A stretch of 64,000 nt of DNA from Stratiolaelaps scimitus (Eukaryota; Arthropoda; Arachnida; Mesostigmata; Laelapidae). The notes beneath the pieces were generated by a model. That model saw nothing but the letters and a program-made list of their open reading frames with translations, was not told the DNA's origin and ran no database searches. Location: assembly GCA_019614645.1 (NCBI GenBank), contig JABWDB010000004.1, forward strand, positions 22,072,001-22,136,000, in the 5' to 3' direction. Every line of letters begins with the position of its first letter. The first letter of the stretch is position 1. Both the position numbers and the translations under genes were made by a program. Shown piece after piece: positions 4,251 to 41,512 of the stretch.

Positions 4251-4260
4251 CATACCTTTC
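4251..4260 (-). promoter_or_regulatory. Candidate 5' splice donor
   Basis: The minus strand reads GAAAG followed by GTATG. This fits the donor consensus AG/GTRNG and sits just before the in-frame stop of the eh1 exon, which makes it the natural exon end. Confidence 0.45.
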
Positions 4261-5477: not shown

Positions 5478-7996
5478 GGCGGCGCGCGGCGGCCGTTAGA
5501 TGTCGTCGTTGGCTCGATTGGATTCTGCTGGCTGATGATAGTCACAAAAGCACCCGACGAACAGCCAACGCTCGAACACTCCGAGGCGGGAAGCAAACAA
5601 TGAGACGCACTTTGAAACTTCGATGCGGGATCGACCCTCTCTCTATTCATTCGTTCTTCTTGCTTACGCCGAACAGGTTGTTTGAACTTGTGAACACGTT
5701 TCCCGGCTCCTACGAGCCCCGTTTGCGCACTTAACGAATACACACTGCTATGGTGACGATGAACAAAGATGATGTCTCCTTCCACTCAACTGTCAACTCG
5801 ACATAAACACTGTTCGTGTACACCGCAGTTCACTCCCGGATGGCTGTTGAACGTCGTCTGTTGTTGATCATTGGCCCGGCATACTACTTGTATGAAGGTG
5901 TGGTACGTCGGCACCTGCTTCTGCTGTCATTGCTGCTGCTGCTGGTGTCGATCGTTGTCGACAAGATGTCGCGGTTTTAGTCCAGGGTTTAGGAAGATTG
6001 AACAACAGCATTGGCTCACCGTTGTCGTCACTTTGCTCGCCACCATTCAGACGTTATTCTGACGGTCGACAGTCTCAGAGGTATCACGCCACGTTTCGCC
6101 TCCGCTTGACGTTGACAACCATTTGTTGGGTACTTTGTCAGACCACTCTAGATTCACTACACGAACGCGTCATTGACAACAATTCCGCGCCATCTGCATA
6201 CCTCGGTACGAATTATCACGGTGATTATCTGTATGACGCTGCTGCCGAACTCGAAAACGGGGGAAAGACCGCAGAAAGCAAGCTCTCTCACATCTCTCCT
6301 GGATGGTCGTCTATCTCCACTTCACCTTGATCTATGTTAACGCTGAATCATTTGTTGCTTGACTTGATTTCGCAGACGGGGGTTCGCTGTTGGTTTTTCG
6401 TCACCGGACGTCAGCTCCGGTTCGACGACACAGACGGGGGTGGTTTCACTTGACACGCTCTCCTTTTGTTGTCCTTGTGGTGTTCGTTTTTGACTTTCGT
6501 TTTGCTAAGCCCCTCGCCCGGGATAGAGCAGCAGAGGTTGGGGATGGCCACGGTTTGACCTCACTACGATGATAGGAAGTGGTGTATGATCCTGTGTTCG
6601 CACGTCACTGTAACTGCCGTTCTGCTTAACTTGCTAGCGTCTCAAGGCATCTCGCTCCATCTCCAGTGATGTGCTGTTCCTTTCTGACTAATTGCTACTA
6701 ATTGTTACTAAGCTACAGAGAAGGTCGCCGAGCTTGCTGTGACTATCTAGCACCACTATCGCTGACTGAGCACACGGATGAAATCGATGATGACACACAA
6801 ATGGATGTTTGGTTCACCTCATATTGTATCAATGTTGCGGGAACGTTTGATTGCGCTTGTTGCTTGTATTTGTTGTTGTTGTTGCAGCTGCTGCCATTAA
6901 CAATGGTCACATTTTCACCGCTGCGCACAGACACTAATCGAAGCCGGTGGTTCCTATGGCCGCTGTAGCGAGAGAAGCCTCCAGTGAGAAACGCATTGGC
7001 AGGGTTAACAACAGCTTTTAGCAGGTGTGTTACCTGCTTGCTCCTGCCACTGTTTGAGGAACAACGATCGAGGCGTATACACCATGGCACCACGGGCACT
7101 GCCGTTGAGGGTAGTCACGTTGTCGCGTTGCTGCTGTGTGCCAGCTGTTCGTCCGGTCGTCGGGTTGGGACGGCCAATTGGGCCACAGTGCGTCCGGGAC
7201 CAACCACACGCTCGACTCGGCTATCGTCTGCCTCGGTCTCGCGTGCGGCTCTGTTGGCCCCGCACAGGCCACGACATAACCGCGCAAACGACGACGACGG
7301 AGGCGGGACCTACGAAGCGCAGGCGCCCAAGCGACGACGCTCGCCCTCTCCACACGGCGGGACTAAGTTGTTTGAGGGAGGATGACGCGATTTCGCCGGA
7401 TTGTCGGCGACCTGACGACAAGTAAACGTTGTCTACGAAGTCAACTTATGTCGAACGAAGTTGAAGTATATTAAATTACGACGTACCGACGCGATTCATT
7501 GACAATGATGAATGTCCGAGGTAATAACACCGAAGATGGACAATGGCTTTATGCAAACGAAGTAAACACAGCTTCGACTAAGAGGTTGACGAGGCGTCGC
7601 ATACACTTTGTAGAAGTGGTGCTTACTCATTACTGGTGCTTAGTCGTTTTGTTTAGAAAGAATTATCAAACGGGCCAGTATGCTGCTATAGCCGATATCT
7701 AAAAATTGACATTAAATCCATGTGCGGTTTCGGCACCAATACGCATATCGAACAACAATAGTGGCAGTGCGCCAAGACGTATTCTATGCCCCGACCTAAT
7801 CCCTCGGGGTCGAAGTGGTATCGTTCGCCCGAACATCTTCGTTCTGCTCTCATCCCTTTATCATATGGCCGCTGATGTTCAGTCAATACAATTTGTTAAC
7901 GCTCTCATTAAGCGGCCCGTCTGCCTTCTTGACTGCGAACCGGTCGTTGCACACTCTCTCAAGCTCCGGCCAGTCTCAATAACTGGAACAGCGGGT

Positions 7997-8875: not shown

Positions 8876-9098
8876 TAGGTTGTAATGATTGTGGGCACCC
8901 GTCTTAACCGCTACCCCATCCGACCATATTTCACCTCAACATTGAACGTGCACGGTACTGCTTTTAGCATTGCTTCGTAAGGCGGACCCCTGAATGCAAA
9001 TGTGGGCAACGGTGAGAATCGAACCCGTGCACCTACGTCCGTCTCCTCCAACGATTGCGGGAGGCGCACGTGCGAGTGCACCAAGCCACCGGGCTGCA
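8876..9098 (-). mobile_element. Candidate tRNA-derived SINE-like repeat
   Basis: On the minus strand a tRNA-like head starts near 9098. An A-box-like TGGCTTGGTGCA lies at 9077-9088 and a B-box GGGTTCGATTC at 9016-9026, roughly 60 bp apart, as in a Pol III internal promoter. It is followed by a body (about 8940-8995) that is about 85 percent identical to a segment at 14378-14430. I cannot fold the head into a clean cloverleaf, so it is tRNA-related rather than a functional tRNA. The 3' limit is uncertain; 8876 is my guess. Two copies with shared body, one with target-site duplications, support a dispersed retroposon. Confidence 0.45.
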
Positions 9099-16466: not shown

Positions 16467-16588
16467 GCAATTTTTGTAATAGTGATGCAATGAAAAGTTT
16501 TCAAGCTCTTGAATGTATATATATATATTTACATATATACATTTAAGGGCTTGAAAACTATTCATTGCATCACTATTATAAAAACTGC
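16467..16588. repeat. Foldback element: 56-bp inverted repeat with 10-nt loop
   Basis: Left arm 16467-16522 and right arm 16533-16588 are reverse complements at 51 of 56 positions; the loop is 16523-16532. Of the five differences three would still pair as G-U in RNA if the + strand is transcribed. It could be a MITE-like foldback element or a hairpin RNA precursor. There is no protein-coding capacity and I see no clear target-site duplication because it sits between TA-rich tracts. Confidence 0.85.
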
Positions 16589-21518: not shown

Positions 21519-22766
21519 TGCGGCTAAATCTGGCAAATATTTATTACAATTTTCAATGAAAATATCACCAATCCTCAAGCACTTTACCTCATCTCGCGTG
21601 CCACGACAACGACCGCCGTCCAGCCGAGGTGAACCCATCTAATTCGGCCTTTAATGACACAGCGAGCGAGAGAGGCAGAACTCAGGAAGCAGTCGACAAC
21701 CTATACACATGCGTCCGAGATATGTATCGGAATCCAATCGTGTGTCAGGTATAATTCCACTTAGTTAATTTCCACTCCGAGAGCGCTTCACCTCACGCGT
21801 GCTCTCCCGTGGCTCAGCCGGTTCGGTCCTGTAGCAAGTGGACTGTCGACACCCTACAGTGTGATCACCATCCGTTTGCTCTGCTGCCTGCCTTCCTGCA
21901 GCGATATCCTAATTCCCATTCGTTGTTGGGGGAGCCCGTTGTCCGAACCACTAGTCCTCTGTGTCCACTTCTCATCTGCTGAGCTGTATAAATAAATGCT
22001 CATCCAATGCTGGGGCAGAGGGTCCGTCAAGCGGGCCTTCTATAAGCGTTCATCTATCGGGTCCTGGCATGAAAAGCGGCAACGGACGCTGGACTTGCTT
22101 GGTCTGACTTCGTGTCCTCGCATTTCCCGCTGCTGGACACCCGGGGACATTTAATTAAAACCTATCTTTCTGACCTCAACAGCGTGGGCAAATGGTACTG
22201 AGTGTTCGGATTTCGCGCTCGCCGTAGAGCGGTTCGGATGGCTTCGATGTGAAAGGACGGACGGACTGTCCGCCAGCAACCAAGCTCCTCTAAGGCTCCT
22301 CTAACTTGCCCTAACTATAATACGATTTTTCGTTCTCTCCTATCAGCCTCAGTCAACTCGATTAGTTAGAAGAACGTTTCGTTGCAAATAGCAGCTGCCA
22401 AAAAGGTCTATATAAAGCTGGACCGGTGCATAGGATCTATATACTGTGTGGCATCTCACTATCGGCGGAGCTATGGCACAAACTGCTTTCCCCCCCCCAC
22501 CTCGTCGCGCCGTCCGCGCTGAGTTTATCGACCGCCTCCGGCCAGACGAGTGCCAATCACTACAGTGGTAATCTCCAGCCGACCCGGACATCGGGCCTTG
22601 TCAATCTGCTTATAAATACCTGCAGTGCAGTAGGCCTCCCATTGGAAGCGAATCGATCGGTCCTTGTAAGTCCATAAACAAATTATTTACGTGCATTATA
22701 CAGATGACAAATTGAAGTTTTCATATTTCACAGATTAACAATGGAAATCACTGCCATGGTAGAGCG

Positions 22767-22839
22767 AGAATCACTTCGACAATAGTAGAGCGCTCGCTTA
22801 GCATTCGAGAGGTACTGGGATTGATACCCAGCATCTCCA
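22767..22839 (+). pseudogene. Decayed tRNA-Ala copy at the left edge of the array
   Basis: The 3' two thirds match the array consensus (from about 22785, with one anticodon-stem change giving ATTCGAG and a T-loop ATTGATA), while the first 20 or so bases are unrecognisable. The acceptor 5' strand, D-stem and most of the A-box are therefore lost. Anticodon AGC and a run of nine T downstream remain. It lies 141 bp before copy 1 and probably marks the old array boundary. Confidence 0.75.
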
Positions 22840-22907
22840 GCGATCTTCAGTGTTTTTTTTTGCTAATCTCAATTAACATAACTCAGGTTTGGATCTTCAT
22901 TGCGTGA

Positions 22908-22980
22908 GGGGATGTAGCTCAGATGGTAGAGCGCTCGCTTAGCATGCGAGAGGTACTGGGATCGATATTCAGCATCTCCA
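22908..22980 (+). tRNA. tRNA-Ala(AGC) copy 1, variant T-stem
   Basis: The T-stem 3' strand is TTCAG instead of CCCAG, so two pairs become G-U. Leader gcgtga, trailer gcgatcttcgatg with a T7 run. Probably still foldable. Confidence 0.9.
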
Positions 22981-23061
22981 GCGATCTTCGATGTTTTTTT
23001 AGCTAACCTCAATTAGGGTAACTCACGTTTACTGAAACACATTTGGGTATTGATTGCGTGA

Positions 23062-23134
23062 GGGGATGTAGCTCAGATGGTAGAGCACTCGCTTAGCATG
23101 CGAGAGGTACTGGGATCGATATTCAGCATCTCCA
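23062..23134 (+). tRNA. tRNA-Ala(AGC) copy 2, variant T-stem and position 26
   Basis: Shares the TTCAG T-stem with copy 1 and has A instead of G at position 26 (GAGCA). 154 bp after copy 1. Confidence 0.88.
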
Positions 23135-23215
23135 GCGATCTTCAATGTTTTTTTAGCTAACCTCAATTAGGGTAACTCACGTTTACTGAAGCACGTTTGA
23201 GTCTTCATTGCGTGA

Positions 23216-23288
23216 GGGGATGTAGCTCAGATGGTAGAGCGCTCGCTTAGCATGCGAGAGGTACTGGGATCGATACCCAGCATCTCCA
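23216..23288 (+). tRNA. tRNA-Ala(AGC) copy 3
   Basis: First copy with the full consensus sequence. Trailer gcgatcttc, T8-type terminator. Confidence 0.97.
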
Positions 23289-23370
23289 GCGATCTTCAAT
23301 GTTTTTTTTAGCTAACCTCAATTAGGGTAACTCACATTTACTGAAACACGTTTGGGTCTTAATTACATGA

Positions 23371-23443
23371 GGGGATGTAGCTCAGATGGTAGAGCGCTCG
23401 CTTAGCATGCGAGAGGTACTGGGATCGATACCCAGCATCTCCA
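23371..23443 (+). tRNA. tRNA-Ala(AGC) copy 4
   Basis: Consensus gene, 155 bp after copy 3. Leader acatga; the downstream spacer is two bases short (next gene after 152 bp). Confidence 0.97.
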
Positions 23444-23522
23444 GCGATCTTCAATGTTTTTATCTAACCTCAATGAAGAAAACTTAGGTTTATTGAAATA
23501 CGTTTGGGTCTTTATTACGTGA

Positions 23523-23595
23523 GGGGATGTAGCCCAGATGGTAGAGCGCTCGCTTAGCATGCGAGAGGTACTGGGATCGATACCCAGCATCTCCA
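23523..23595 (+). tRNA. tRNA-Ala(AGC) copy 5, D-stem variant
   Basis: D-stem reads GCCC rather than GCTC, breaking the 12-23 pair and altering the A-box. Leader acgtga is unique in the array. Confidence 0.85.
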
Positions 23596-23676
23596 GTGAT
23601 CTTCAATGTTTTTGTAACTAACCTCAATAAAGATAACTCAGGTTTATTGAAACACTTTTGGGTCTTTATTACATGA

Positions 23677-23749
23677 GGGGATGTAGCTCAGATGGTAGAG
23701 CGCTCGCTTAGCATGCGAGAGGTACTGGGATCGATACCCAGCATCTCCA
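23677..23749 (+). tRNA. tRNA-Ala(AGC) copy 6
   Basis: Consensus gene. Trailer gtggtcttc; the following spacer is 112 bp because of the 31-bp duplication. Confidence 0.97.
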
Positions 23750-24046
23750 GTGGTCTTCAATGTTTTTGTAACTAACCTCAATGAAGATAACTCAGGTTTA
23801 TTGAAACTCGTTTGGGTCTTTATTAGGTTTATTGAAATACGTTTGGGTCTTTGTTACATGAGGGGATGTAGCTCAGATGGTAGAGCGCTCGCTTAGCATG
23901 CGAGAGGTACTGGGATCGATACCCAGCATCTCCAGTGATCTTCAATGTTTTTGTAACTAACCTCAATGAAGATAACTCAGGTTTATTGAAACACGTTTGG
24001 GTCTTTATTAGGTTTATTGAAATACGTTTGGGTCTTCATTGCGTGA
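23750..24046 (+). repeat. Two spacers with a 31-bp internal duplication
   Basis: The spacers after copies 6 and 7 are 112 bp instead of 81. The segment from aggtttattgaaa to gggtcttTATT is present twice. The same long spacer occurs at 24736-24847, 25996-26107 and 27875-27986. Confidence 0.92.
23862..23934 (+). tRNA. tRNA-Ala(AGC) copy 7
   Basis: Consensus gene lying between two long (112-bp) spacers, the only copy so placed. Confidence 0.97.
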
Positions 24047-24119
24047 GGGGATGTAGCTCAGATGGTAGAGCGCTCGCTTAGCATGCGAGAGGTACTGGGA
24101 TCGATACCCAGCATCTCCA
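24047..24119 (+). tRNA. tRNA-Ala(AGC) copy 8
   Basis: Consensus gene, leader gcgtga, after a long spacer. Confidence 0.97.
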
Positions 24120-24200
24120 GTGATCTTCAATGTTTTTGTAACTAACCTCAATGAAGATAACTTAGGTTTATTGAAACACGTTTGGGTCTTTATTACATGA

Positions 24201-24273
24201 GGGGATGTAGCTCAGATGGTAGAGCGCTCGCTTAGCATGCGAGAGGTACTGGGATCGATACCCAGCATCTACA
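24201..24273 (+). tRNA. tRNA-Ala(AGC) copy 9, acceptor variant
   Basis: Acceptor 3' strand is CATCTAC: C71 to A breaks the pair with G2. Trailer gcgatcttc. Start of a block repeated at copies 22-25. Confidence 0.82.
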
Positions 24274-24354
24274 GCGATCTTCAATGTTTTTGTAACTAAC
24301 CTCAATGAAGATAACTTAGGTTTATTGAAACATGTTTGGGTCTTCATTGCGTGA

Positions 24355-24427
24355 GGGGATGTAGCTCAGATGGTAGAGCGCTCGCTTAGCATGCGAGAGG
24401 TACTGGGATCGATACCCAGCATCTCCA
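24355..24427 (+). tRNA. tRNA-Ala(AGC) copy 10
   Basis: Consensus gene, trailer gtggtcttc; corresponds to copy 23 in the duplicated block. Confidence 0.97.
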
Positions 24428-24508
24428 GTGGTCTTCAATGTTTTTGTAACTAACCTCAATGAGGATAACTTAGGTTTACTGAAACACGTTTGGGTCTTCA
24501 TTGCGTGA

Positions 24509-24581
24509 GGGGATGTAGCTCAGATGGTAGAGCGCTCGCTTAGCATGCGAGAGGTACTGGGATCGATACCCAGCATCTCCA
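24509..24581 (+). tRNA. tRNA-Ala(AGC) copy 11
   Basis: Consensus gene, trailer gtgatctcc; corresponds to copy 24. Confidence 0.97.
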
Positions 24582-24662
24582 GTGATCTCCAATGTTTTTG
24601 TAACTAACCTCAATGAAGATAACTTAGGTTTATTGAAACTCGTTTGGGTCTTTATTACATGA

Positions 24663-24735
24663 GGGGATGTAGCTCAGATGGTAGAGCGCTCGCTTAGCAT
24701 GCGAGAGGTACTGGGAGCGATACCCAGCATCTCCA
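24663..24735 (+). tRNA. tRNA-Ala(AGC) copy 12, T-loop variant
   Basis: T-loop AGCGATA: the near-invariant T55 is G, which also damages the B-box. Same change as copy 25. Followed by a 112-bp spacer. Possibly inactive. Confidence 0.78.
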
Positions 24736-24847
24736 GTGATCTTCAATGTTTTTGTAACTAACCTCAATGAAGATAACTCAGGTTTATTGAAACACGTTTA
24801 GGTCTTTATTAGGTTTATTGAAATACGTTTGGGTCTTTGTTACATGA

Positions 24848-24920
24848 GGGGATGTAGCTCAGATGGTAGAGCGCTCGCTTAGCATGCGAGAGGTACTGGG
24901 ATCGATACCCAGCATCTCCA
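24848..24920 (+). tRNA. tRNA-Ala(AGC) copy 13
   Basis: Consensus gene; trailer gtgatctgc is private to this copy. Confidence 0.97.
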
Positions 24921-25001
24921 GTGATCTGCAATGTTTTTGTAACTAACCTCAATGAAGATAACTTAGGTTTATTGAAATACGTTTGGGTCTTTGTTATATG
25001 A

Positions 25002-25074
25002 GGGGATGTAGCTCAGATGGTAGAGCGCTCGCTTAGCATGCGAGAGGTACTGGGATCGATACCCAGCATCTCCA
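25002..25074 (+). tRNA. tRNA-Ala(AGC) copy 14
   Basis: Consensus gene, leader atatga. Its downstream spacer (aataaagataactcagg, then acactttt) matches the one after copy 5. Confidence 0.97.
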
Positions 25075-25155
25075 GTGATCTTCAATGTTTTTGTAACTAA
25101 CCTCAATAAAGATAACTCAGGTTTATTGAAACACTTTTGGGTCTTTATTACATGA

Positions 25156-25228
25156 GGGGATGTAGCTCAGATGGTAGAGCGCTCGCTTAGCATGCGAGAG
25201 GTACTGGGATCGATACCCAGCATCTCCA
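25156..25228 (+). tRNA. tRNA-Ala(AGC) copy 15
   Basis: Consensus gene, leader acatga. Confidence 0.97.
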
Positions 25229-25309
25229 GTGATCTTCAATGTTTTTGTAACTAACCTCAATGAAGATAACTTAAGTTTACTGAAACATGTTTGGGTCTTC
25301 ATTGCGTGA

Positions 25310-25382
25310 GGGGATGTAGCTAAGATGGTAGAGCGCTCGCTTAGCATGCGAGAGGTACTGGCATCGATACCCAGCATCTCCA
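25310..25382 (+). tRNA. tRNA-Ala(AGC) copy 16, doubly mutated
   Basis: D-stem GCTA (C13 to A) and T-stem CTGGC (G53 to C, breaking the conserved 53-61 pair). The most damaged full-length copy; likely a pseudogene. Its following spacer is 79 bp. Confidence 0.7.
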
Positions 25383-25461
25383 GCGATCTTCAATGTTTTT
25401 ATCTAACCTCAATGAAGATAACTTAGGTTTATTGAAATACGTTTGGGTCTTTGTTACATGA

Positions 25462-25534
25462 GGGGATGTAGCTCAGATGGTAGAGCGCTCGCTTAGCATG
25501 CGAGAGGTACTGGGATCGATACCCAGCATCTCCA
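25462..25534 (+). tRNA. tRNA-Ala(AGC) copy 17
   Basis: Consensus gene, trailer gtggtcttc. Confidence 0.97.
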
Positions 25535-25615
25535 GTGGTCTTCAATGTTTTTGTAACTAACCTCAATGAAGATAACTCAGGTTTATTGAAACACGTTTGG
25601 GTCTTTATTACATGA

Positions 25616-25688
25616 GGGGATGTAGCTCAGATGGTAGAGCGCTCGCTTAGCATGCGAGAGGTACTGGGATCGATACCCAGCATCTCCA
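25616..25688 (+). tRNA. tRNA-Ala(AGC) copy 18
   Basis: Consensus gene. The terminator is only T4 (gttttataac) and the spacer has ttaatg for tcaatg, shared with copy 30. Confidence 0.96.
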
Positions 25689-25768
25689 GTGATCTTCAAT
25701 GTTTTATAACTAACCTTAATGAAGATAACTTAGGTTTTTTGAAACACGTTTGGGTCTTCATTGCGTGA

Positions 25769-25841
25769 GGGGATGTAGCTCAGATGGTAGAGCGCTCGCT
25801 TAGCATGCGAGAGGTACTGGGATCGATACCCAGCATCTCCA
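25769..25841 (+). tRNA. tRNA-Ala(AGC) copy 19
   Basis: Consensus gene, trailer gtgatctcc; counterpart of copy 31. Confidence 0.97.
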
Positions 25842-25922
25842 GTGATCTCCAATGTTTTTGTAACTAACCTCAATGAAGATAACTTAGGTTTATTGAAACA
25901 CGTTTGGGTCTTTATTACATGA

Positions 25923-25995
25923 GGGGATGTAGCTCAGATGGTAGAGCGCTCGCTTAGCATGCGAGAGGTACTGGGATCGATACCCAGCATCTCCA
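25923..25995 (+). tRNA. tRNA-Ala(AGC) copy 20
   Basis: Consensus gene, trailer gtgaacttc found only here and at copy 32; long spacer follows. Confidence 0.97.
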
Positions 25996-26107
25996 GTGAA
26001 CTTCAATGTTTTTGTAACTAACCTCAATGAAGATAACTCAGGTTTATTGAAACACGTTTGGGTCTTTATTAGGTTTATTGAAATACGTTTGGGTCTTTGT
26101 TACATGA

Positions 26108-26180
26108 GGGGATGTAGCTCAGATGGTAGAGCGCTCGCTTAGCATGCGAGAGGTACTGGGATCGATACCCAGCATCTCCA
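26108..26180 (+). tRNA. tRNA-Ala(AGC) copy 21
   Basis: Consensus gene after a 112-bp spacer; counterpart of copy 33. Confidence 0.97.
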
Positions 26181-26261
26181 GTGATCTTCAATGTTTTTGT
26201 AACTAACCTCAATGAAGATAACTTAGGTTTATTGAAACACGTTTGGGTCTTTATTACATGA

Positions 26262-26334
26262 GGGGATGTAGCTCAGATGGTAGAACGCTCGCTTAGCATG
26301 CGAGAGGTACTGGGATCGATACCCAGCATCTACA
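26262..26334 (+). tRNA. tRNA-Ala(AGC) copy 22, D-stem and acceptor variant
   Basis: GAGC is GAAC (G24 to A, breaking 11-24), and the acceptor strand is CATCTAC as in copy 9. Likely inactive or poorly charged. Confidence 0.72.
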
Positions 26335-26415
26335 GCGATCTTCAATGTTTTTGTAACTAACCTCAATGAGGATAACTTAGGTTTATTGAAACATGTTTGG
26401 GTCTTCATTGCTTGA

Positions 26416-26488
26416 GGGGATGTAGCTCAGATGGTAGAGCGCTCGCTTAGCATGCGAGAGGTACTGGGATCAATACCCAGCATCTCCA
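26416..26488 (+). tRNA. tRNA-Ala(AGC) copy 23, T-loop variant
   Basis: T-loop ATCAATA: G57 to A keeps the required purine, so function is possible. Leader gcttga, shared only with copy 37. Confidence 0.88.
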
Positions 26489-26569
26489 GTGGTCTTCAAT
26501 GTTTTTGTAACTAACCTCAATGAGGATAACTTAGGTTTACTGAAACACGTTTGGGTCTTCATTGCGTGA

Positions 26570-26642
26570 GGGGATGTAGCTCAGATGGTAGAGCGCTCGC
26601 TTAGCATGCGAGAGGTACTGGGATCGATACCCAGCATCTCCA
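26570..26642 (+). tRNA. tRNA-Ala(AGC) copy 24
   Basis: Consensus gene, trailer gtgatctcc. Confidence 0.97.
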
Positions 26643-26723
26643 GTGATCTCCAATGTTTTTGTAACTAACCTCAATGAAGATAACTTAGGTTTATTGAAAC
26701 ACGTTTGGGTCTTTATTACATGA

Positions 26724-26796
26724 GGGGATGTAGCTCAGATGGTAGAGCGCTCGCTTAGCATGCGAGAGGTACTGGGAGCGATACCCAGCATCTCCA
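26724..26796 (+). tRNA. tRNA-Ala(AGC) copy 25, T-loop variant
   Basis: T55 to G as in copy 12, from which it appears to descend by block duplication. Confidence 0.78.
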
Positions 26797-26877
26797 GTGA
26801 TCTCCAATGTTTTTGTAACTAACCTCAATGAGGATAACTTGGGTTTATTGAAACACGTTTAGGTCTTCATTGCGTGA

Positions 26878-26950
26878 GGGGATGTAGCTCAGATGGTAGA
26901 GCGCTCGCTTAGCATGCGAGAGGTACTGGGATCGGTACCCAGCATCTCCA
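26878..26950 (+). tRNA. tRNA-Ala(AGC) copy 26, T-loop variant
   Basis: T-loop ATCGGTA: the invariant A58 is G. Tertiary T-loop pairing 54-58 would be lost. Confidence 0.76.
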
Positions 26951-27031
26951 GTGATCTTCAATGTTTTTGTAACTAACCTCAATGAAGATAACTTAGGTTT
27001 ATTGAAACACGTTTCGGTCTTTATTACATGA

Positions 27032-27104
27032 GGGGATGTAGCTCAGATGGTAGAGCGCTCGCTTAGCATGCGAGAGGTACTGGGATCGATACCCAGCATC
27101 TCCA
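27032..27104 (+). tRNA. tRNA-Ala(AGC) copy 27
   Basis: Consensus gene. The upstream spacer has cgtttcggtc instead of cgtttgggtc, a marker shared with copies 28, 30 and 38. Confidence 0.97.
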
Positions 27105-27185
27105 GTGATCTTCAATGTTTTTGTAACTAACCTCAATGAAGATAACTTAGGTTTATTGAAACACGTTTCGGTCTTTATTACATGA

Positions 27186-27258
27186 GGGGATGTAGCTCAG
27201 ATGGTAGAGCGCTCGCTTAGCATGCGAGAGGTACTGGGATCGATACCCAGCATCTCCA
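27186..27258 (+). tRNA. tRNA-Ala(AGC) copy 28
   Basis: Consensus gene with the ttcggtc upstream marker; trailer gtggtcttc. Confidence 0.97.
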
Positions 27259-27339
27259 GTGGTCTTCAATGTTTTTGTAACTAACCTCAATGAAGATAAC
27301 TTAGGTTTACTGAAACACGTTTGGGTCTTCATTGCGTGA

Positions 27340-27412
27340 GGGGATGTAGCTCAGATGGTAGAGCGCTCGCTTAGCATGCGAGAGGTACTGGGATCGATAC
27401 CCAGCATCTCCA
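27340..27412 (+). tRNA. tRNA-Ala(AGC) copy 29
   Basis: Consensus gene, leader gcgtga, trailer gtggtcttc. Confidence 0.97.
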
Positions 27413-27493
27413 GTGGTCTTCAATGTTTTTGTAACTAACCTCAATGAAGATAACTTAGGTTTATTGAAACACGTTTCGGTCTTTATTACATGA

Positions 27494-27566
27494 GGGGATG
27501 TAGCTCAGATGGTAGAGCGCTCGCTTAGCATGCGAGAGGTACTGGGATCGATACCCAGCATCTCCA
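27494..27566 (+). tRNA. tRNA-Ala(AGC) copy 30
   Basis: Consensus gene; spacer with tttttataac and ttaatg like copy 18. Confidence 0.97.
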
Positions 27567-27647
27567 GTGATCTTCAATGTTTTTATAACTAACCTTAATG
27601 AAGATAACTTAGGTTTATTGAAACACGTTTGGGTCTTCATTGCGTGA

Positions 27648-27720
27648 GGGGATGTAGCTCAGATGGTAGAGCGCTCGCTTAGCATGCGAGAGGTACTGGG
27701 ATCGATACCCAGCATCTCCA
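27648..27720 (+). tRNA. tRNA-Ala(AGC) copy 31
   Basis: Consensus gene, trailer gtgatctcc. Confidence 0.97.
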
Positions 27721-27801
27721 GTGATCTCCAATGTTTTTGTAACTAACCTCAATGAAGATAACTTAGGTTTATTGAAACACGTTTGGGTCTTTATTACATG
27801 A

Positions 27802-27874
27802 GGGGATGTAGCTCAGATGGTAGAGCGCTCGCTTAGCATGCGAGAGGTACTGGGATCGATACCCAGCATCTCCA
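27802..27874 (+). tRNA. tRNA-Ala(AGC) copy 32
   Basis: Consensus gene, trailer gtgaacttc; followed by the last long spacer of the array. Confidence 0.97.
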
Positions 27875-27986
27875 GTGAACTTCAATGTTTTTGTAACTAA
27901 CCTCAATGAAGATAACTCAGGTTTATTGAAACACGTTTGGGTCTTTATTAGGTTTATTGAAATACGTTTGGGTCTTTGTTACATGA

Positions 27987-28059
27987 GGGGATGTAGCTCA
28001 GATGGTAGAGCGCTCGCTTAGCATGCGAGAGGTAATGGGATCGATACCCAGCATCTCCA
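27987..28059 (+). tRNA. tRNA-Ala(AGC) copy 33, T-stem variant
   Basis: C49 to A (aatggg), breaking the 49-65 pair. Otherwise consensus. Confidence 0.84.
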
Positions 28060-28140
28060 GTGATCTTCAATGTTTTTGTAACTAACCTCAATGAAGATAA
28101 CTTAGGTTTATTGAAACACGTTTGGGTCTTTATTACATGA

Positions 28141-28213
28141 GGGGATGTAGCTCAGATGGTAGAGCGCTCGCTTAGCATGCGAGAGGTACTGGGATCGATA
28201 CCCAGCATCTCCA
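28141..28213 (+). tRNA. tRNA-Ala(AGC) copy 34
   Basis: Consensus gene, leader acatga. Confidence 0.97.
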
Positions 28214-28294
28214 GTGATCTTCAATGTTTTTGTAACTAACCTCAATGAAGATAACTTAGGTTTATTGAAACATGTTTGGGTCTTCATTGCGTGA

Positions 28295-28367
28295 GGGGAT
28301 GTAGCTCAGATGGTAGAGCGCTCGCTTAGCATGCGAGAGGTACTGGGATCGATACCCAGCATCTCCA
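28295..28367 (+). tRNA. tRNA-Ala(AGC) copy 35
   Basis: Consensus gene; catgtttggg upstream and gtggtcttc downstream, the same pair as copy 40. Confidence 0.97.
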
Positions 28368-28448
28368 GTGGTCTTCAATGTTTTTGTAACTAACCTCAAT
28401 GAAGATAACTTAGGTTTACTGAAACACGTTTGGATCTTCATTGCGTGA

Positions 28449-28521
28449 GGGCATGTAGCTCAGATGGTAGAGCGCTCGCTTAGCATGCGAGAGGTACTGG
28501 GATCGATACCCAGCATCTCCA
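28449..28521 (+). tRNA. tRNA-Ala(AGC) copy 36, acceptor variant
   Basis: Acceptor 5' strand GGGCATG: G4 to C gives a C-C mismatch with position 69, next to the G3:U70 identity pair. Confidence 0.82.
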
Positions 28522-28602
28522 GTGATCTTCAATGTTTTTGTAACTAACCTCAATGAAGATAACTTAGGTTTACTGAAACACGTTTGGGTCTTCATTGCTT
28601 GA

Positions 28603-28675
28603 GGGGATGTAGCTCAGATGGTAGAGCGCTCGCTTAGCATGCGAGAGGTACTGGGATCGATACCCAGCATCTCCA
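28603..28675 (+). tRNA. tRNA-Ala(AGC) copy 37
   Basis: Consensus gene, leader gcttga. Confidence 0.97.
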
Positions 28676-28756
28676 GTGATCTTCAATGTTTTTGTAACTA
28701 ACCTCAATGAAGATAACTTAGGTTTATTGAAACACGTTTCGGTCTTTATTACATGA

Positions 28757-28829
28757 GGGGATGTAGCTCAGATGGTAGAGCGCTCGCTTAGCATGCGAGA
28801 GGTACTGGGATCGATACCCAGCATCTCCA
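28757..28829 (+). tRNA. tRNA-Ala(AGC) copy 38
   Basis: Consensus gene with ttcggtc upstream marker; trailer gtggtcttc. Confidence 0.97.
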
Positions 28830-28910
28830 GTGGTCTTCAATGTTTTTGTAACTAACCTCAATGAAGATAACTTAGGTTTACTGAAACACGTTTGGGTCTT
28901 CATTGCGTGA

Positions 28911-28983
28911 GGGGATGTAGCTCAGATGGTAGAGCGCTCGCTTAGCATGCGAGAGGTACTGGGATCGATACCCAGCATCTCCA
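28911..28983 (+). tRNA. tRNA-Ala(AGC) copy 39
   Basis: Consensus gene; trailer ends caaggttttt, a private change. Confidence 0.97.
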
Positions 28984-29064
28984 GTGATCTTCAAGGTTTT
29001 TGTAACTAACCTCAATGAAGATAACTTAGGTTTATTGAAACATGTTTGGGTCTTCATTGCGTGA

Positions 29065-29137
29065 GGGGATGTAGCTCAGATGGTAGAGCGCTCGCTTAGC
29101 ATGCGAGAGGTACTGGGATCGATACCCAGCATCTCCA
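29065..29137 (+). tRNA. tRNA-Ala(AGC) copy 40
   Basis: Consensus gene, counterpart of copy 35 at an offset of 770 bp. Confidence 0.97.
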
Positions 29138-29218
29138 GTGGTCTTCAATGTTTTTGTAACTAACCTCAATGAAGATAACTTAGGTTTACTGAAACACGTT
29201 TGGATCTTCATTGCGTGA

Positions 29219-29291
29219 GGGGATGTAGCTCAGATGGTAGAGCGCTCGCTTAGCATGCGAGAGGTACTGGGATCGATACCCAGCATCTCCA
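29219..29291 (+). tRNA. tRNA-Ala(AGC) copy 41
   Basis: Consensus gene; the ggatcttc spacer ending, typical of the right side of the array, precedes it as it does copy 36. Confidence 0.97.
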
Positions 29292-29372
29292 GTGATCTTC
29301 AATGTTTTTGTAACTAACCTCAATGAAGATAACTTAGGTTTACTGAAACACGTTTGGGTCTTCATTGCGTGA

Positions 29373-29445
29373 GGGGATGTAGCTCAGATGGTAGAGCGCT
29401 CGCTTAGCATGCGAGAGGTACTGGGATCGATACCCAGCATCTCCA
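29373..29445 (+). tRNA. tRNA-Ala(AGC) copy 42
   Basis: Consensus gene, leader gcgtga. Confidence 0.97.
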
Positions 29446-29526
29446 GTGATCTTCAATGTTTTTGTAACTAACCTCAATGAAGATAACTTAGGTTTACTGA
29501 AACACGTTTGGGTCTTCATTGCGTGA

Positions 29527-29599
29527 GGGGATGTAGCTCAGATGGTAGAGCGCTCGCTTAGCATGCGAGAGGTACTGGGATCGATACCCAGCAACTCCA
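29527..29599 (+). tRNA. tRNA-Ala(AGC) copy 43, acceptor variant
   Basis: Acceptor 3' strand CAACTCC: T68 to A gives an A-A mismatch with position 5. Last variant copy in the array. Confidence 0.83.
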
Positions 29600-29680
29600 G
29601 TGATCTTCAATGTTTTTATAACTAACCTCAATGAAGATAATTTAGGTTTATTGAAACACGTTTGGGTCTTTATTACATGA

Positions 29681-29753
29681 GGGGATGTAGCTCAGATGGT
29701 AGAGCGCTCGCTTAGCATGCGAGAGGTACTGGGATCGATACCCAGCATCTCCA
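29681..29753 (+). tRNA. tRNA-Ala(AGC) copy 44
   Basis: Consensus gene; last acatga leader, first gatatctt spacer downstream. Confidence 0.97.
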
Positions 29754-29834
29754 GTGATCTTCAATGTTTTTGTAACTAACCTCAATGAAGATATCTTAGG
29801 TTTATTGAAACACGTTTGGGTCTTCATTGCGTGA

Positions 29835-29907
29835 GGGGATGTAGCTCAGATGGTAGAGCGCTCGCTTAGCATGCGAGAGGTACTGGGATCGATACCCAGC
29901 ATCTCCA
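29835..29907 (+). tRNA. tRNA-Ala(AGC) copy 45
   Basis: Consensus gene, followed by a type B spacer (gatatctt, gggtcttc). Confidence 0.97.
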
Positions 29908-29988
29908 GTGATCTTCAATGTTTTTGTAACTAACCTCAATGAAGATATCTTAGGTTTATTGAAACACGTTTGGGTCTTCATTGCGTGA

Positions 29989-30061
29989 GGGGATGTAGCT
30001 CAGATGGTAGAGCGCTCGCTTAGCATGCGAGAGGTACTGGGATCGATACCCAGCATCTCCA
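29989..30061 (+). tRNA. tRNA-Ala(AGC) copy 46
   Basis: Consensus gene, followed by a type A spacer (gataactt, ggatcttc). Confidence 0.97.
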
Positions 30062-30142
30062 GTGATCTTCAATGTTTTTGTAACTAACCTCAATGAAGAT
30101 AACTTAGGTTTATTGAAACACGTTTGGATCTTCATTGCGTGA

Positions 30143-30215
30143 GGGGATGTAGCTCAGATGGTAGAGCGCTCGCTTAGCATGCGAGAGGTACTGGGATCGA
30201 TACCCAGCATCTCCA
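30143..30215 (+). tRNA. tRNA-Ala(AGC) copy 47
   Basis: Consensus gene; spacer has tttttataac with gataactt and gggtcttc, a mixed type. Confidence 0.97.
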
Positions 30216-30296
30216 GTGATCTTCAATGTTTTTATAACTAACCTCAATGAAGATAACTTAGGTTTATTGAAACACGTTTGGGTCTTCATTGCGTGA

Positions 30297-30369
30297 GGGG
30301 ATGTAGCTCAGATGGTAGAGCGCTCGCTTAGCATGCGAGAGGTACTGGGATCGATACCCAGCATCTCCA
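30297..30369 (+). tRNA. tRNA-Ala(AGC) copy 48
   Basis: Consensus gene, type B spacer follows; first unit of the regular A/B alternation. Confidence 0.97.
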
Positions 30370-30450
30370 GTGATCTTCAATGTTTTTGTAACTAACCTCA
30401 ATGAAGATATCTTAGGTTTATTGAAACACGTTTGGGTCTTCATTGCGTGA

Positions 30451-30523
30451 GGGGATGTAGCTCAGATGGTAGAGCGCTCGCTTAGCATGCGAGAGGTACT
30501 GGGATCGATACCCAGCATCTCCA
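30451..30523 (+). tRNA. tRNA-Ala(AGC) copy 49
   Basis: Consensus gene, type A spacer follows. Confidence 0.97.
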
Positions 30524-30604
30524 GTGATCTTCAATGTTTTTGTAACTAACCTCAATGAAGATAACTTAGGTTTATTGAAACACGTTTGGATCTTCATTGC
30601 GTGA

Positions 30605-30677
30605 GGGGATGTAGCTCAGATGGTAGAGCGCTCGCTTAGCATGCGAGAGGTACTGGGATCGATACCCAGCATCTCCA
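30605..30677 (+). tRNA. tRNA-Ala(AGC) copy 50
   Basis: Consensus gene, type B spacer follows. Confidence 0.97.
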
Positions 30678-30758
30678 GTGATCTTCAATGTTTTTGTAAC
30701 TAACCTCAATGAAGATATCTTAGGTTTATTGAAACACGTTTGGGTCTTCATTGCGTGA

Positions 30759-30831
30759 GGGGATGTAGCTCAGATGGTAGAGCGCTCGCTTAGCATGCGA
30801 GAGGTACTGGGATCGATACCCAGCATCTCCA
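30759..30831 (+). tRNA. tRNA-Ala(AGC) copy 51
   Basis: Consensus gene, type A spacer follows. Confidence 0.97.
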
Positions 30832-30912
30832 GTGATCTTCAATGTTTTTGTAACTAACCTCAATGAAGATAACTTAGGTTTATTGAAACACGTTTGGATC
30901 TTCATTGCGTGA

Positions 30913-30985
30913 GGGGATGTAGCTCAGATGGTAGAGCGCTCGCTTAGCATGCGAGAGGTACTGGGATCGATACCCAGCATCTCCA
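30913..30985 (+). tRNA. tRNA-Ala(AGC) copy 52
   Basis: Consensus gene, type B spacer follows. Confidence 0.97.
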
Positions 30986-31066
30986 GTGATCTTCAATGTT
31001 TTTGTAACTAACCTCAATGAAGATATCTTAGGTTTATTGAAACACGTTTGGGTCTTCATTGCGTGA

Positions 31067-31139
31067 GGGGATGTAGCTCAGATGGTAGAGCGCTCGCTTA
31101 GCATGCGAGAGGTACTGGGATCGATACCCAGCATCTCCA
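31067..31139 (+). tRNA. tRNA-Ala(AGC) copy 53
   Basis: Consensus gene, type A spacer follows. Confidence 0.97.
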
Positions 31140-31220
31140 GTGATCTTCAATGTTTTTGTAACTAACCTCAATGAAGATAACTTAGGTTTATTGAAACACG
31201 TTTGGATCTTCATTGCGTGA

Positions 31221-31293
31221 GGGGATGTAGCTCAGATGGTAGAGCGCTCGCTTAGCATGCGAGAGGTACTGGGATCGATACCCAGCATCTCCA
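31221..31293 (+). tRNA. tRNA-Ala(AGC) copy 54
   Basis: Consensus gene, type B spacer follows. Confidence 0.97.
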
Positions 31294-31374
31294 GTGATCT
31301 TCAATGTTTTTGTAACTAACCTCAATGAAGATATCTTAGGTTTATTGAAACACGTTTGGGTCTTCATTGCGTGA

Positions 31375-31447
31375 GGGGATGTAGCTCAGATGGTAGAGCG
31401 CTCGCTTAGCATGCGAGAGGTACTGGGATCGATACCCAGCATCTCCA
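31375..31447 (+). tRNA. tRNA-Ala(AGC) copy 55
   Basis: Consensus gene, type A spacer follows. Confidence 0.97.
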
Positions 31448-31528
31448 GTGATCTTCAATGTTTTTGTAACTAACCTCAATGAAGATAACTTAGGTTTATT
31501 GAAACACGTTTGGATCTTCATTGCGTGA

Positions 31529-31601
31529 GGGGATGTAGCTCAGATGGTAGAGCGCTCGCTTAGCATGCGAGAGGTACTGGGATCGATACCCAGCATCTCC
31601 A
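31529..31601 (+). tRNA. tRNA-Ala(AGC) copy 56
   Basis: Consensus gene, type B spacer follows. Confidence 0.97.
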
Positions 31602-31682
31602 GTGATCTTCAATGTTTTTGTAACTAACCTCAATGAAGATATCTTAGGTTTATTGAAACACGTTTGGGTCTTCATTGCGTGA

Positions 31683-31755
31683 GGGGATGTAGCTCAGATG
31701 GTAGAGCGCTCGCTTAGCATGCGAGAGGTACTGGGATCGATACCCAGCATCTCCA
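31683..31755 (+). tRNA. tRNA-Ala(AGC) copy 57
   Basis: Consensus gene, type A spacer follows. Confidence 0.97.
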
Positions 31756-31836
31756 GTGATCTTCAATGTTTTTGTAACTAACCTCAATGAAGATAACTTA
31801 GGTTTATTGAAACACGTTTGGATCTTCATTGCGTGA

Positions 31837-31909
31837 GGGGATGTAGCTCAGATGGTAGAGCGCTCGCTTAGCATGCGAGAGGTACTGGGATCGATACCCA
31901 GCATCTCCA
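31837..31909 (+). tRNA. tRNA-Ala(AGC) copy 58
   Basis: Consensus gene, type B spacer follows. Confidence 0.97.
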
Positions 31910-31990
31910 GTGATCTTCAATGTTTTTGTAACTAACCTCAATGAAGATATCTTAGGTTTATTGAAACACGTTTGGGTCTTCATTGCGTGA

Positions 31991-32063
31991 GGGGATGTAG
32001 CTCAGATGGTAGAGCGCTCGCTTAGCATGCGAGAGGTACTGGGATCGATACCCAGCATCTCCA
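31991..32063 (+). tRNA. tRNA-Ala(AGC) copy 59
   Basis: Consensus gene; chimeric spacer follows (gataactt with gggtcttc), a break in the alternation. Confidence 0.97.
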
Positions 32064-32144
32064 GTGATCTTCAATGTTTTTGTAACTAACCTCAATGAAG
32101 ATAACTTAGGTTTATTGAAACACGTTTGGGTCTTCATTGCGTGA

Positions 32145-32217
32145 GGGGATGTAGCTCAGATGGTAGAGCGCTCGCTTAGCATGCGAGAGGTACTGGGATC
32201 GATACCCAGCATCTCCA
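32145..32217 (+). tRNA. tRNA-Ala(AGC) copy 60
   Basis: Consensus gene, type A spacer follows. Confidence 0.97.
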
Positions 32218-32298
32218 GTGATCTTCAATGTTTTTGTAACTAACCTCAATGAAGATAACTTAGGTTTATTGAAACACGTTTGGATCTTCATTGCGTGA

Positions 32299-32371
32299 GG
32301 GGATGTAGCTCAGATGGTAGAGCGCTCGCTTAGCATGCGAGAGGTACTGGGATCGATACCCAGCATCTCCA
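32299..32371 (+). tRNA. tRNA-Ala(AGC) copy 61
   Basis: Consensus gene; reciprocal chimeric spacer follows (gatatctt with ggatcttc). Confidence 0.97.
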
Positions 32372-32452
32372 GTGATCTTCAATGTTTTTGTAACTAACCT
32401 CAATGAAGATATCTTAGGTTTATTGAAACACGTTTGGATCTTCATTGCGTGA

Positions 32453-32525
32453 GGGGATGTAGCTCAGATGGTAGAGCGCTCGCTTAGCATGCGAGAGGTA
32501 CTGGGATCGATACCCAGCATCTCCA
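32453..32525 (+). tRNA. tRNA-Ala(AGC) copy 62
   Basis: Consensus gene, type A spacer follows. Confidence 0.97.
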
Positions 32526-32606
32526 GTGATCTTCAATGTTTTTGTAACTAACCTCAATGAAGATAACTTAGGTTTATTGAAACACGTTTGGATCTTCATT
32601 GCGTGA

Positions 32607-32679
32607 GGGGATGTAGCTCAGATGGTAGAGCGCTCGCTTAGCATGCGAGAGGTACTGGGATCGATACCCAGCATCTCCA
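32607..32679 (+). tRNA. tRNA-Ala(AGC) copy 63
   Basis: Consensus gene, type B spacer follows. Confidence 0.97.
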
Positions 32680-32760
32680 GTGATCTTCAATGTTTTTGTA
32701 ACTAACCTCAATGAAGATATCTTAGGTTTATTGAAACACGTTTGGGTCTTCATTGCGTGA

Positions 32761-32833
32761 GGGGATGTAGCTCAGATGGTAGAGCGCTCGCTTAGCATGC
32801 GAGAGGTACTGGGATCGATACCCAGCATCTCCA
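32761..32833 (+). tRNA. tRNA-Ala(AGC) copy 64
   Basis: Consensus gene, type A spacer follows. Confidence 0.97.
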
Positions 32834-32914
32834 GTGATCTTCAATGTTTTTGTAACTAACCTCAATGAAGATAACTTAGGTTTATTGAAACACGTTTGGA
32901 TCTTCATTGCGTGA

Positions 32915-32987
32915 GGGGATGTAGCTCAGATGGTAGAGCGCTCGCTTAGCATGCGAGAGGTACTGGGATCGATACCCAGCATCTCCA
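32915..32987 (+). tRNA. tRNA-Ala(AGC) copy 65
   Basis: Consensus gene, type B spacer follows. Confidence 0.97.
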
Positions 32988-33068
32988 GTGATCTTCAATG
33001 TTTTTGTAACTAACCTCAATGAAGATATCTTAGGTTTATTGAAACACGTTTGGGTCTTCATTGCGTGA

Positions 33069-33141
33069 GGGGATGTAGCTCAGATGGTAGAGCGCTCGCT
33101 TAGCATGCGAGAGGTACTGGGATCGATACCCAGCATCTCCA
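33069..33141 (+). tRNA. tRNA-Ala(AGC) copy 66
   Basis: Consensus gene, type A spacer follows. Confidence 0.97.
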
Positions 33142-33222
33142 GTGATCTTCAATGTTTTTGTAACTAACCTCAATGAAGATAACTTAGGTTTATTGAAACA
33201 CGTTTGGATCTTCATTGCGTGA

Positions 33223-33295
33223 GGGGATGTAGCTCAGATGGTAGAGCGCTCGCTTAGCATGCGAGAGGTACTGGGATCGATACCCAGCATCTCCA
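33223..33295 (+). tRNA. tRNA-Ala(AGC) copy 67
   Basis: Consensus gene, type B spacer follows. Confidence 0.97.
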
Positions 33296-33376
33296 GTGAT
33301 CTTCAATGTTTTTGTAACTAACCTCAATGAAGATATCTTAGGTTTATTGAAACACGTTTGGGTCTTCATTGCGTGA

Positions 33377-33449
33377 GGGGATGTAGCTCAGATGGTAGAG
33401 CGCTCGCTTAGCATGCGAGAGGTACTGGGATCGATACCCAGCATCTCCA
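33377..33449 (+). tRNA. tRNA-Ala(AGC) copy 68
   Basis: Consensus gene, type A spacer follows. Confidence 0.97.
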
Positions 33450-33530
33450 GTGATCTTCAATGTTTTTGTAACTAACCTCAATGAAGATAACTTAGGTTTA
33501 TTGAAACACGTTTGGATCTTCATTGCGTGA

Positions 33531-33603
33531 GGGGATGTAGCTCAGATGGTAGAGCGCTCGCTTAGCATGCGAGAGGTACTGGGATCGATACCCAGCATCT
33601 CCA
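33531..33603 (+). tRNA. tRNA-Ala(AGC) copy 69
   Basis: Consensus gene, type B spacer follows. Confidence 0.97.
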
Positions 33604-33684
33604 GTGATCTTCAATGTTTTTGTAACTAACCTCAATGAAGATATCTTAGGTTTATTGAAACACGTTTGGGTCTTCATTGCGTGA

Positions 33685-33757
33685 GGGGATGTAGCTCAGA
33701 TGGTAGAGCGCTCGCTTAGCATGCGAGAGGTACTGGGATCGATACCCAGCATCTCCA
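33685..33757 (+). tRNA. tRNA-Ala(AGC) copy 70, right end of the array
   Basis: Consensus gene. Its trailer has a T7 terminator (gtttttttagc) like copies 1-3 at the far left, then leaves the array sequence, with a faint spacer remnant (tattgaaacacattt) at about 33804-33818. Confidence 0.97.
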
Positions 33758-34266
33758 GTGATCTTCAATGTTTTTTTAGCTTTTTACTTTAAAAAGCAAC
33801 GATATTGAAACACATTTTGAACGCTTTGCTTCCTTCGTATTCAATTATTTTTTAAAATTGAGAAAACAACTATTAATGTATGTTATTATTGTATAATGCC
33901 AAGCATAGCTGTTTGACAAAAAGTCCACGGTGAAGTAACCCAGTGAAAGTGGTCCGTCCGGGGAACGGTCAACGTAGCACTGGGGCCCGGCCTTGGACAA
34001 AGAAGACGGTGCCGCGCCCCAGACTAACAGAAAGTTACCCGAGCTATTGCGAACAGCTGCATCTTTTCTCGATACAGCCGAACAAGCGGCCTTCGTCTAC
34101 TGTTGCCAGCTGGACCGCAGTATCCATGGTACAGTAGTACTTCAACGAAGGTCACATCACCATGCACTTTCCTTTACTTTAGACACGGACAAGACGATTA
34201 GTACACTACACAACAATGCAATTTTTAATTTCATATATTTATTTGGGATCGCAGAAAAGACTTGAA

Positions 34267-40840: not shown

Positions 40841-40902
40841 AGTTAATAGTACACAATATCAGTTTAATAGTACACATAATCAGTTTAATAGTACACAAGA
40901 TC
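40841..40902. repeat. Three-copy 21-bp tandem repeat
   Basis: Units at 40841-40860, 40861-40881 and 40882-40902 share the core ttaatagtacaca; the first lacks one base. Confidence 0.85.
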
Positions 40903-41512
40903 AGTTTTACAAGTTTGATTTCCAAGCATACGCTTCCAAAGCTCCCCGTGAGACAAGGTGGATCAAAATTTCCAATTTCAATATGCATAATAGATTTCAA
41001 ATTGAAATAGGCTCAAGTTGGTATCGGTTAAACTGACAAGGGACAAGAAAGGAAATTCAATTGAGTAAAGATCGTTTAGCGAATGGGAGATAACAGAGTA
41101 TTGTAATTGAACATGGTGGTACTCTGGGGGTCCCAGTTTTCTTCGTCTACATCGCTTCTCCTGTAAGAAAATCGAAGTTTGTCCAGCACTATCCTGTGGC
41201 CGCTTTGCACTTAATGAAACAATTACGTCCCTAATTAGTAATAATTAACAATCGCTTCTCTCGTTCACAATTCTACTAATGCTGTTCTCGACAGAACAGC
41301 TATCTAATATAAACCTTAATCACATATTCCATCATGAACCATATCGTGCTCCAGTATGAATTCAGATATTGTACACCATATGCCCATGACATTGAATGGT
41401 CATGTGCATAAGGCGCGTCGACGAACGACTCATCTTGAAGAAAAACTAATCACTTGGTGCTGCAATAATCGTAAGAGAGACCCGTCTTCGACGGAAGCCA
41501 AAACCATTATCG

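Follow-up and report, generated by a model that had tools for sequence, protein, structure and literature searches.

A satellite-like tandem array of 70 tRNA-Ala(AGC) genes in the mite Stratiolaelaps scimitus

Layout of the array and anatomy of its genes

We analysed a stretch of 64,000 nucleotides from the mite Stratiolaelaps scimitus (GenBank assembly GCA_019614645.1, contig JABWDB010000004.1, positions 22,072,001 to 22,136,000 of the forward strand; called the window here, with its first letter as position 1), which carries a long tandem array of tRNA-Ala(AGC) genes. Comparison with the array consensus on both strands identified 70 full-length genes from 22908 to 33757, all on the plus strand. 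ARAGORN, run on the window, called 68 tRNA-Ala(AGC) genes over the same interval, again all on the plus strand, and the two genes absent from its calls (24663 and 26724) both have the change T55G. The Rfam tRNA model gave 70 matches at its gathering score, all of them within the array (43.5 to 61 bits), and the E values of 9e-11 to 6e-6 place the array far beyond chance. At normal thresholds neither ARAGORN nor Rfam found a further tRNA gene anywhere in the 64-kb window. These scans bear out a first-pass annotation, made from the letters alone, that had described about 70 tRNA-Ala(AGC) genes in one orientation, to which a single broken copy is to be added. Of the range given there (22767 to 33757) the right end is correct; its left end falls in the broken copy, and full-length genes begin only at 22908.

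The spacing of the genes is highly regular. As had been claimed, nearly all lie 154 bp apart: 60 of the 69 gene-to-gene distances are exactly 154 bp, the remainder being 185 bp (five), 152 bp (two), 153 bp (one) and 155 bp (one), and the five 185-bp spacings are due to 31-bp duplications of the upstream stretch. Tandem Repeats Finder (TRF) counted 69.8 copies with a period of 154. The unit is made up of a 73-bp gene, which takes up 47% of its length, and an 81-bp spacer. A tandem array of tRNA-Ala(AGC) genes at this locus is thereby confirmed. Its parts are as follows:

22908 to 33757, plus strand: the full tandem array of 70 genes (ARAGORN, TRF, consensus comparison, Rfam)
22756 to 22839, plus strand: broken copy at the left edge with a disrupted 5' part (consensus comparison, blastn alignment, sequence)
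22908 to 29599, plus strand: diverged part, the first 43 genes, including all 13 genes that depart from the consensus
29681 to 33757, plus strand: uniform part, the last 27 genes, all identical
33758 to 33838, plus strand: right edge, its first 13 nt interior-like, followed by a T7AGCT run and then largely unique DNA
25462 to 26261, plus strand: five-unit block, copy 1 (units 16-20)
27340 to 28140, plus strand: five-unit block, copy 2 (units 28-32)
23794 to 23856, plus strand: 31-bp duplication of the upstream stretch, one of five (the others from 23979, 24780, 26040 and 27919)
29647 to 29652, plus strand: an AT-rich TTTATT element shown as an example, -34 to -29 relative to its gene (position read from the sequence)
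29767 to 29771, plus strand: example of the terminator-like T5 run, 13 nt past the gene end (position read from the sequence)

The gene sequence itself is identical in 57 of the 70 copies, and 40 distinct unit sequences occur among the 69 units with array spacers. Given this number of unit types, the presence of both flanks and the lack of any N base in the window, an assembly artefact could hardly account for the entire array. Assemblers miscount stretches of the type formed by the last 27 genes, which are identical and separated by almost identical spacers, and the unit count in this uniform right-hand part may be wrong. Set against the variety of units elsewhere, we nevertheless consider it very unlikely that the copy number is in part an assembly artefact.

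Every unit looks like a gene for RNA polymerase III (Pol III), judging from its sequence elements. The anticodon AGC and the pair G3:U70 are present in 70/70 genes, all 21 stem pairs are standard in 63/70, and a run of at least four T starts 13 nt past the gene end in every copy (T5 in 65, T7 in three, T8 in one and T4 in one), in good agreement with the intact cloverleaf, AGC anticodon, G3:U70 pair and T-run terminators first ascribed to most copies. An AT-rich element is found at -34 to -29 in 68/70 units, reading TTTATT in 55 and TTTACT in 13; the titles of two papers indicate that a TATA-like element matters in insect tRNA genes. No change is listed for the A box (positions 8-19) in 68 of the 70 genes or for the B box (52-62) in 63. 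The consensus is predicted to fold into a cloverleaf, and among four altered copies the predicted cloverleaf was kept in 24663, partly changed in 22908 and 23523, and lost in 26262. The locus holds many full genes in one orientation and at regular spacing, and most of them retain an intact internal promoter, terminator and cloverleaf, features of a functional tandem tRNA array.

Turnover of units and variation between copies

Variation between units declines from left to right. Diversity and column comparisons were made with insertions excluded and over the 69 units that have an array spacer, which the last of the 70 lacks. Spacer diversity in successive thirds of the array is 0.104, 0.056 and 0.014, and the mean edit distance between neighbouring units is 15.7 in units 0-22, a left-side value inflated by the 31-bp insertions, then 8.0 in units 23-42 and 1.8 in units 43-68. 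Of the 26 spacers in the uniform part, 12 are of one type and 11 of another; the two types mostly alternate and so form a dimer of 308 bp. Units two steps apart in this last block differ by 0.58 and adjacent units by 1.76, indicating that the dimer is the repeating unit there. The two five-unit blocks, at an offset of 1878-1879 bp, differ unit by unit by only 2, 2, 0, 0 and 1, and represent a duplicated segment. Head-to-tail repetition, local homogenisation and higher-order repeats, the properties of a satellite, are all found here, as seen in the lag distances and the five-unit duplication. From these patterns we infer that the array probably grew by unequal crossing-over and that its left part would be the older.

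The two edges differ in kind. The broken copy at 22767 has 16 mismatches to the consensus over 73 positions; it becomes recognisable from about 22782, with two further substitutions in the remainder. At 22756-22766 a short stretch corresponds to gene positions 16-26 and adjoins unrelated bases (22756-22784; read from the sequence), and this apparent partial repeat suggests an insertion or slippage event. At the right edge, the first 13 nt of the last trailer are of the interior type, and the trailer then reads T7AGCT, as in the leftmost units, rather than the T5G of the interior.

The gene bodies have not followed the spacers. Nucleotide diversity among copies is 0.0673 in the spacer and 0.0071 in the gene, a ratio of 9.5, and 37 of the 81 spacer columns are variable versus 14 of the 73 gene columns (p=0.0006). 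When variants were divided by the number of copies that carry them, those present in a single copy occupied similar shares of the two regions (10/73 gene columns and 16/81 spacer columns, p=0.39), whereas variants present in at least two copies occupied 4/73 gene columns and 31/81 spacer columns (p=7e-7). The singleton-to-shared contrast between gene and spacer has a p value of 0.029. Once the three leftmost units were removed, singletons numbered 9 in the gene and 8 in the spacer, and shared variants 2 and 26; the contrast kept its direction in this reduced set, as it did for the middle 40 units, for the left 43 and for the 40 distinct ones. Changes in the gene seem to arise about as often as changes in the spacer and seldom spread, which we read as selection during turnover.

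Gene bodies more constrained than spacers (4/73 versus 31/81 columns) are what a functional tandem tRNA array should have, and the contrast favours a constraint tied to the product, which a satellite should lack, although gene conversion from outside donors would yield the same contrast. The first-pass suggestion that a tRNA gene had turned into a satellite is apt for the turnover of the array, which is diverged on the left and uniform on the right and contains a 308-bp dimer and a multi-unit duplication, but not for the genes, which do not drift like the spacers. The array appears to spread like a satellite and to be kept like a gene.

Candidate roles of the array

We propose that the array has grown by unequal crossing-over and has been kept because its Pol III-transcribed units would supply extra alanine tRNA, a reading of the sequence for which we judge the balance to be about even. 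Under this proposal, the array would expand by unequal crossing-over, Pol III transcription of the units would yield additional alanine tRNA, and selection on tRNA dose would remove those arrays in which damaged copies spread, with the result that amplification would favour working genes. By likeness to the silk gland of the silkworm, the dose may be needed in a tissue or stage of heavy alanine demand. Supply of Ala-tRNA was one of three roles put forward in the first-pass annotation, the others being a boundary and a source of tRNA fragments, and it appears to be the best supported of them, with shared changes rare in genes and common in spacers.

Several points weigh against the supply of alanine tRNA as the reason for the array. 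The column tests assume independent copies and columns, an assumption that does not strictly hold. One or more stem pairs are broken in seven of the 13 altered genes, suggesting that individual copies are policed only loosely. Two changes that look damaging have each reached a second copy: C71A, a disruption of pair 2:71 (24201 and 26262), and the B-box change T55G (24663 and 26724); together with the broken pairs, this indicates that damaged copies persist and occasionally spread. Furthermore, uniform gene bodies would also result if tRNA-Ala genes at other genomic sites acted as donors in gene conversion.

The alternative that survives best builds on such conversion. The array would be a neutral satellite, unused, growing and shrinking, whose gene bodies stay uniform through conversion from intact tRNA-Ala genes elsewhere. 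Both the satellite-like turnover and the broken pairs in 7/13 altered genes are consistent with this explanation, and outside donors that share the 73-bp gene and none of the spacer would confine conversion to the gene alone, yielding the contrast between gene and spacer. It requires, however, frequent conversion tracts of about 73 bp from unlinked donors. Moreover, the terminator run (70/70) and the AT-rich element (68/70) persist in the spacer, where donors need not share them. On this evidence we regard a neutral satellite as fairly unlikely.

The array might instead hold a stage-specific stock, silent in most tissues and serving oocytes or early embryos, not secretory tissue. This is a special case of the supply reading, and we think it unlikely, the window containing no pointer to one stage.

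Some tDNAs insulate their neighbourhood, and the array could act mainly as a chromatin boundary by binding TFIIIC/TFIIIB, another of the roles first proposed. The main contact of TFIIIC is the B box, while the anticodon arm is not a TFIIIC contact. The B box is the most variable part of the gene, with changes at 6 of 11 positions versus 8 of 62 elsewhere (p=0.0047, an approximate value because one pair of copies carries both the change at 61 and that at 62), and no position of the anticodon arm varies (0/17). These observations weaken the boundary role: a boundary should keep its A and B boxes above the rest of the gene, and this was not found. The A box, for its part, is not unusually variable (2 of 12 positions), and a human tandem repeat with tRNA genes at 1q23.3 binds CTCF and has been proposed as a boundary (PMC4041453, excerpt). 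Overall, a boundary as the main role of the array is very unlikely.

A tRNA-derived short interspersed nuclear element (SINE) was rejected, since the window holds no dispersed copies of the unit and blastn outside 22741-33840 returned only short, weak matches (best E 0.31).

Returning to the supply of alanine tRNA, a bolder form of that reading is that the array is a second, independently evolved animal 'tRNA-Ala factory', in which satellite-like amplification would pass on mainly working genes, to be switched on in one tissue or stage and provide it with abundant alanine tRNA for an Ala-rich secreted protein. We offer this tentatively, as a joint claim drawn from the sequence that is possible rather than probable. 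The locus bears on the question of whether arrays of redundant tRNA genes have a use or are debris, and offers a built-in test of it within one sequence: it has 70 copies, its spacers provide a yardstick, and new changes contrast clearly with those that have spread.

The surroundings and known tRNA arrays

Only one coding stretch was recognised in the window, a lone exon (minus strand, about 4257-5264) that includes a conserved SPPKSPTPHFIIDILG motif. The exon is 69% identical to P0001 and 37% identical to part of P0002, in two protein searches that each scored only about 8,000 candidates sharing the most words. The motif is reminiscent of the EH1-like motifs of homeobox genes. Pfam gave no match for the longer open reading frame (ORF) of the exon at 4230-5492, and a search of PDB with the exon returned seven matches, none meaningful (best E 0.086). 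No Pfam match at the family cut-off was obtained among the 20 ORFs scanned, out of 50 of at least 120 amino acids and 762 of at least 40, so that other genes in the window, including some nearer the array, are possible.

Some further observations concern the window outside the array. With the array masked, a loose ARAGORN run gave 29 low-scoring matches that we treated as noise. A tRNA-like stretch at 9004-9090 on the minus strand, with a B-box-like GGTTCGATTCTCACC, received a weak score in that run and may be an old tRNA-derived SINE. An inverted repeat at 16467-16588 has 59-nt arms that are 90% complementary with 4 nt between them, and is perhaps a hairpin-type element. TRF also reported a 21-bp tandem repeat of about three copies at 40843-40907. 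A promoter scan of the left flank was discarded, as its model is bacterial. Two patterns taken from the tRNA gene had no exact match in viral contigs, and a plasmid search returned only two short matches, both bacterial and covering 38% and 31% of the unit, that have no bearing on the array.

A literature search by title found no description of this array, by which we do not claim its absence from print; the mite-genome paper that it matched concerns mitochondrial tRNAs (PMC4641413, excerpt). Long arrays of one isoacceptor had been called exceptional in the first-pass annotation. The size and uniformity of the present array agree with that description, but tandem tRNA arrays are already known, including one of tRNA-Ala in the silkworm. 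Such arrays are established in silkworm, Arabidopsis and Entamoeba, and the present one is a striking example of them.

The closest parallel is the silkworm. The silk-gland tRNA-Ala genes of Bombyx mori form a cluster (PMC12419691), described as one of tandem repeats (PMC12308677, excerpt). This silk-gland-specific cluster (Underwood et al. 1988, as cited in later papers) consists, like the array described here, of tandem tRNA-Ala genes, and the role may by analogy be of the same kind. The silkworm cluster is specific to the silk gland; our comparison of it with the mite array, made from the mite sequence, covers gene content.

In Arabidopsis, the SYY cluster of tRNA-Ser/Tyr/Tyr genes consists of a uniform core between variable flanks rich in pseudogenes, and when it is deleted, production of a Ser/Tyr/Pro-rich extensin suffers (PMC12308677, excerpt). 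The mite array is likewise divided into a uniform part and a variable one, in which damaged genes are more frequent. The SYY unit comprises three genes and is repeated 27 times (PMC12419691), in contrast to one gene per 154-bp unit and 70 genes here. The tRNA-Tyr genes of the SYY cluster contain introns, and its core is flanked by a variable region at either end (PMC12308677, excerpt), while the mite gene is intron-less and its array is variable at the left end alone. From Arabidopsis and silkworm it has been argued that translation is matched to secreted repetitive proteins by tandem tRNA amplification (PMC12308677, excerpt). If expressed, the mite array would be a further case of such matching.

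Arrays in Entamoeba also hold tRNA genes in tandem, in mostly uniform units whose uniformity is ascribed to concerted evolution (PMC2652664, excerpt). In E. histolytica almost all tRNA genes lie in 25 types of array, with up to five genes and short repeats between them (same excerpt), as opposed to one array of one isoacceptor in the 64 kb analysed here. The human 1q23.3 repeat, which varies from 9 to 43 units, has a 7.3-kb unit of which tRNA genes make up less than 6% (PMC4041453, excerpt), a far smaller share than in the mite unit. Clusters of at least 50 tRNA genes occur in Nematostella and teleosts; the survey that describes them reports mostly heterogeneous pairs in Nematostella and zebrafish (PMC2888827, excerpt), unlike the single isoacceptor found here. 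What sets the mite array apart from these systems is the combination of one isoacceptor, an intron-less gene that occupies 47% of each 154-bp unit, and a record, carried by the array itself, of the changes that have spread.

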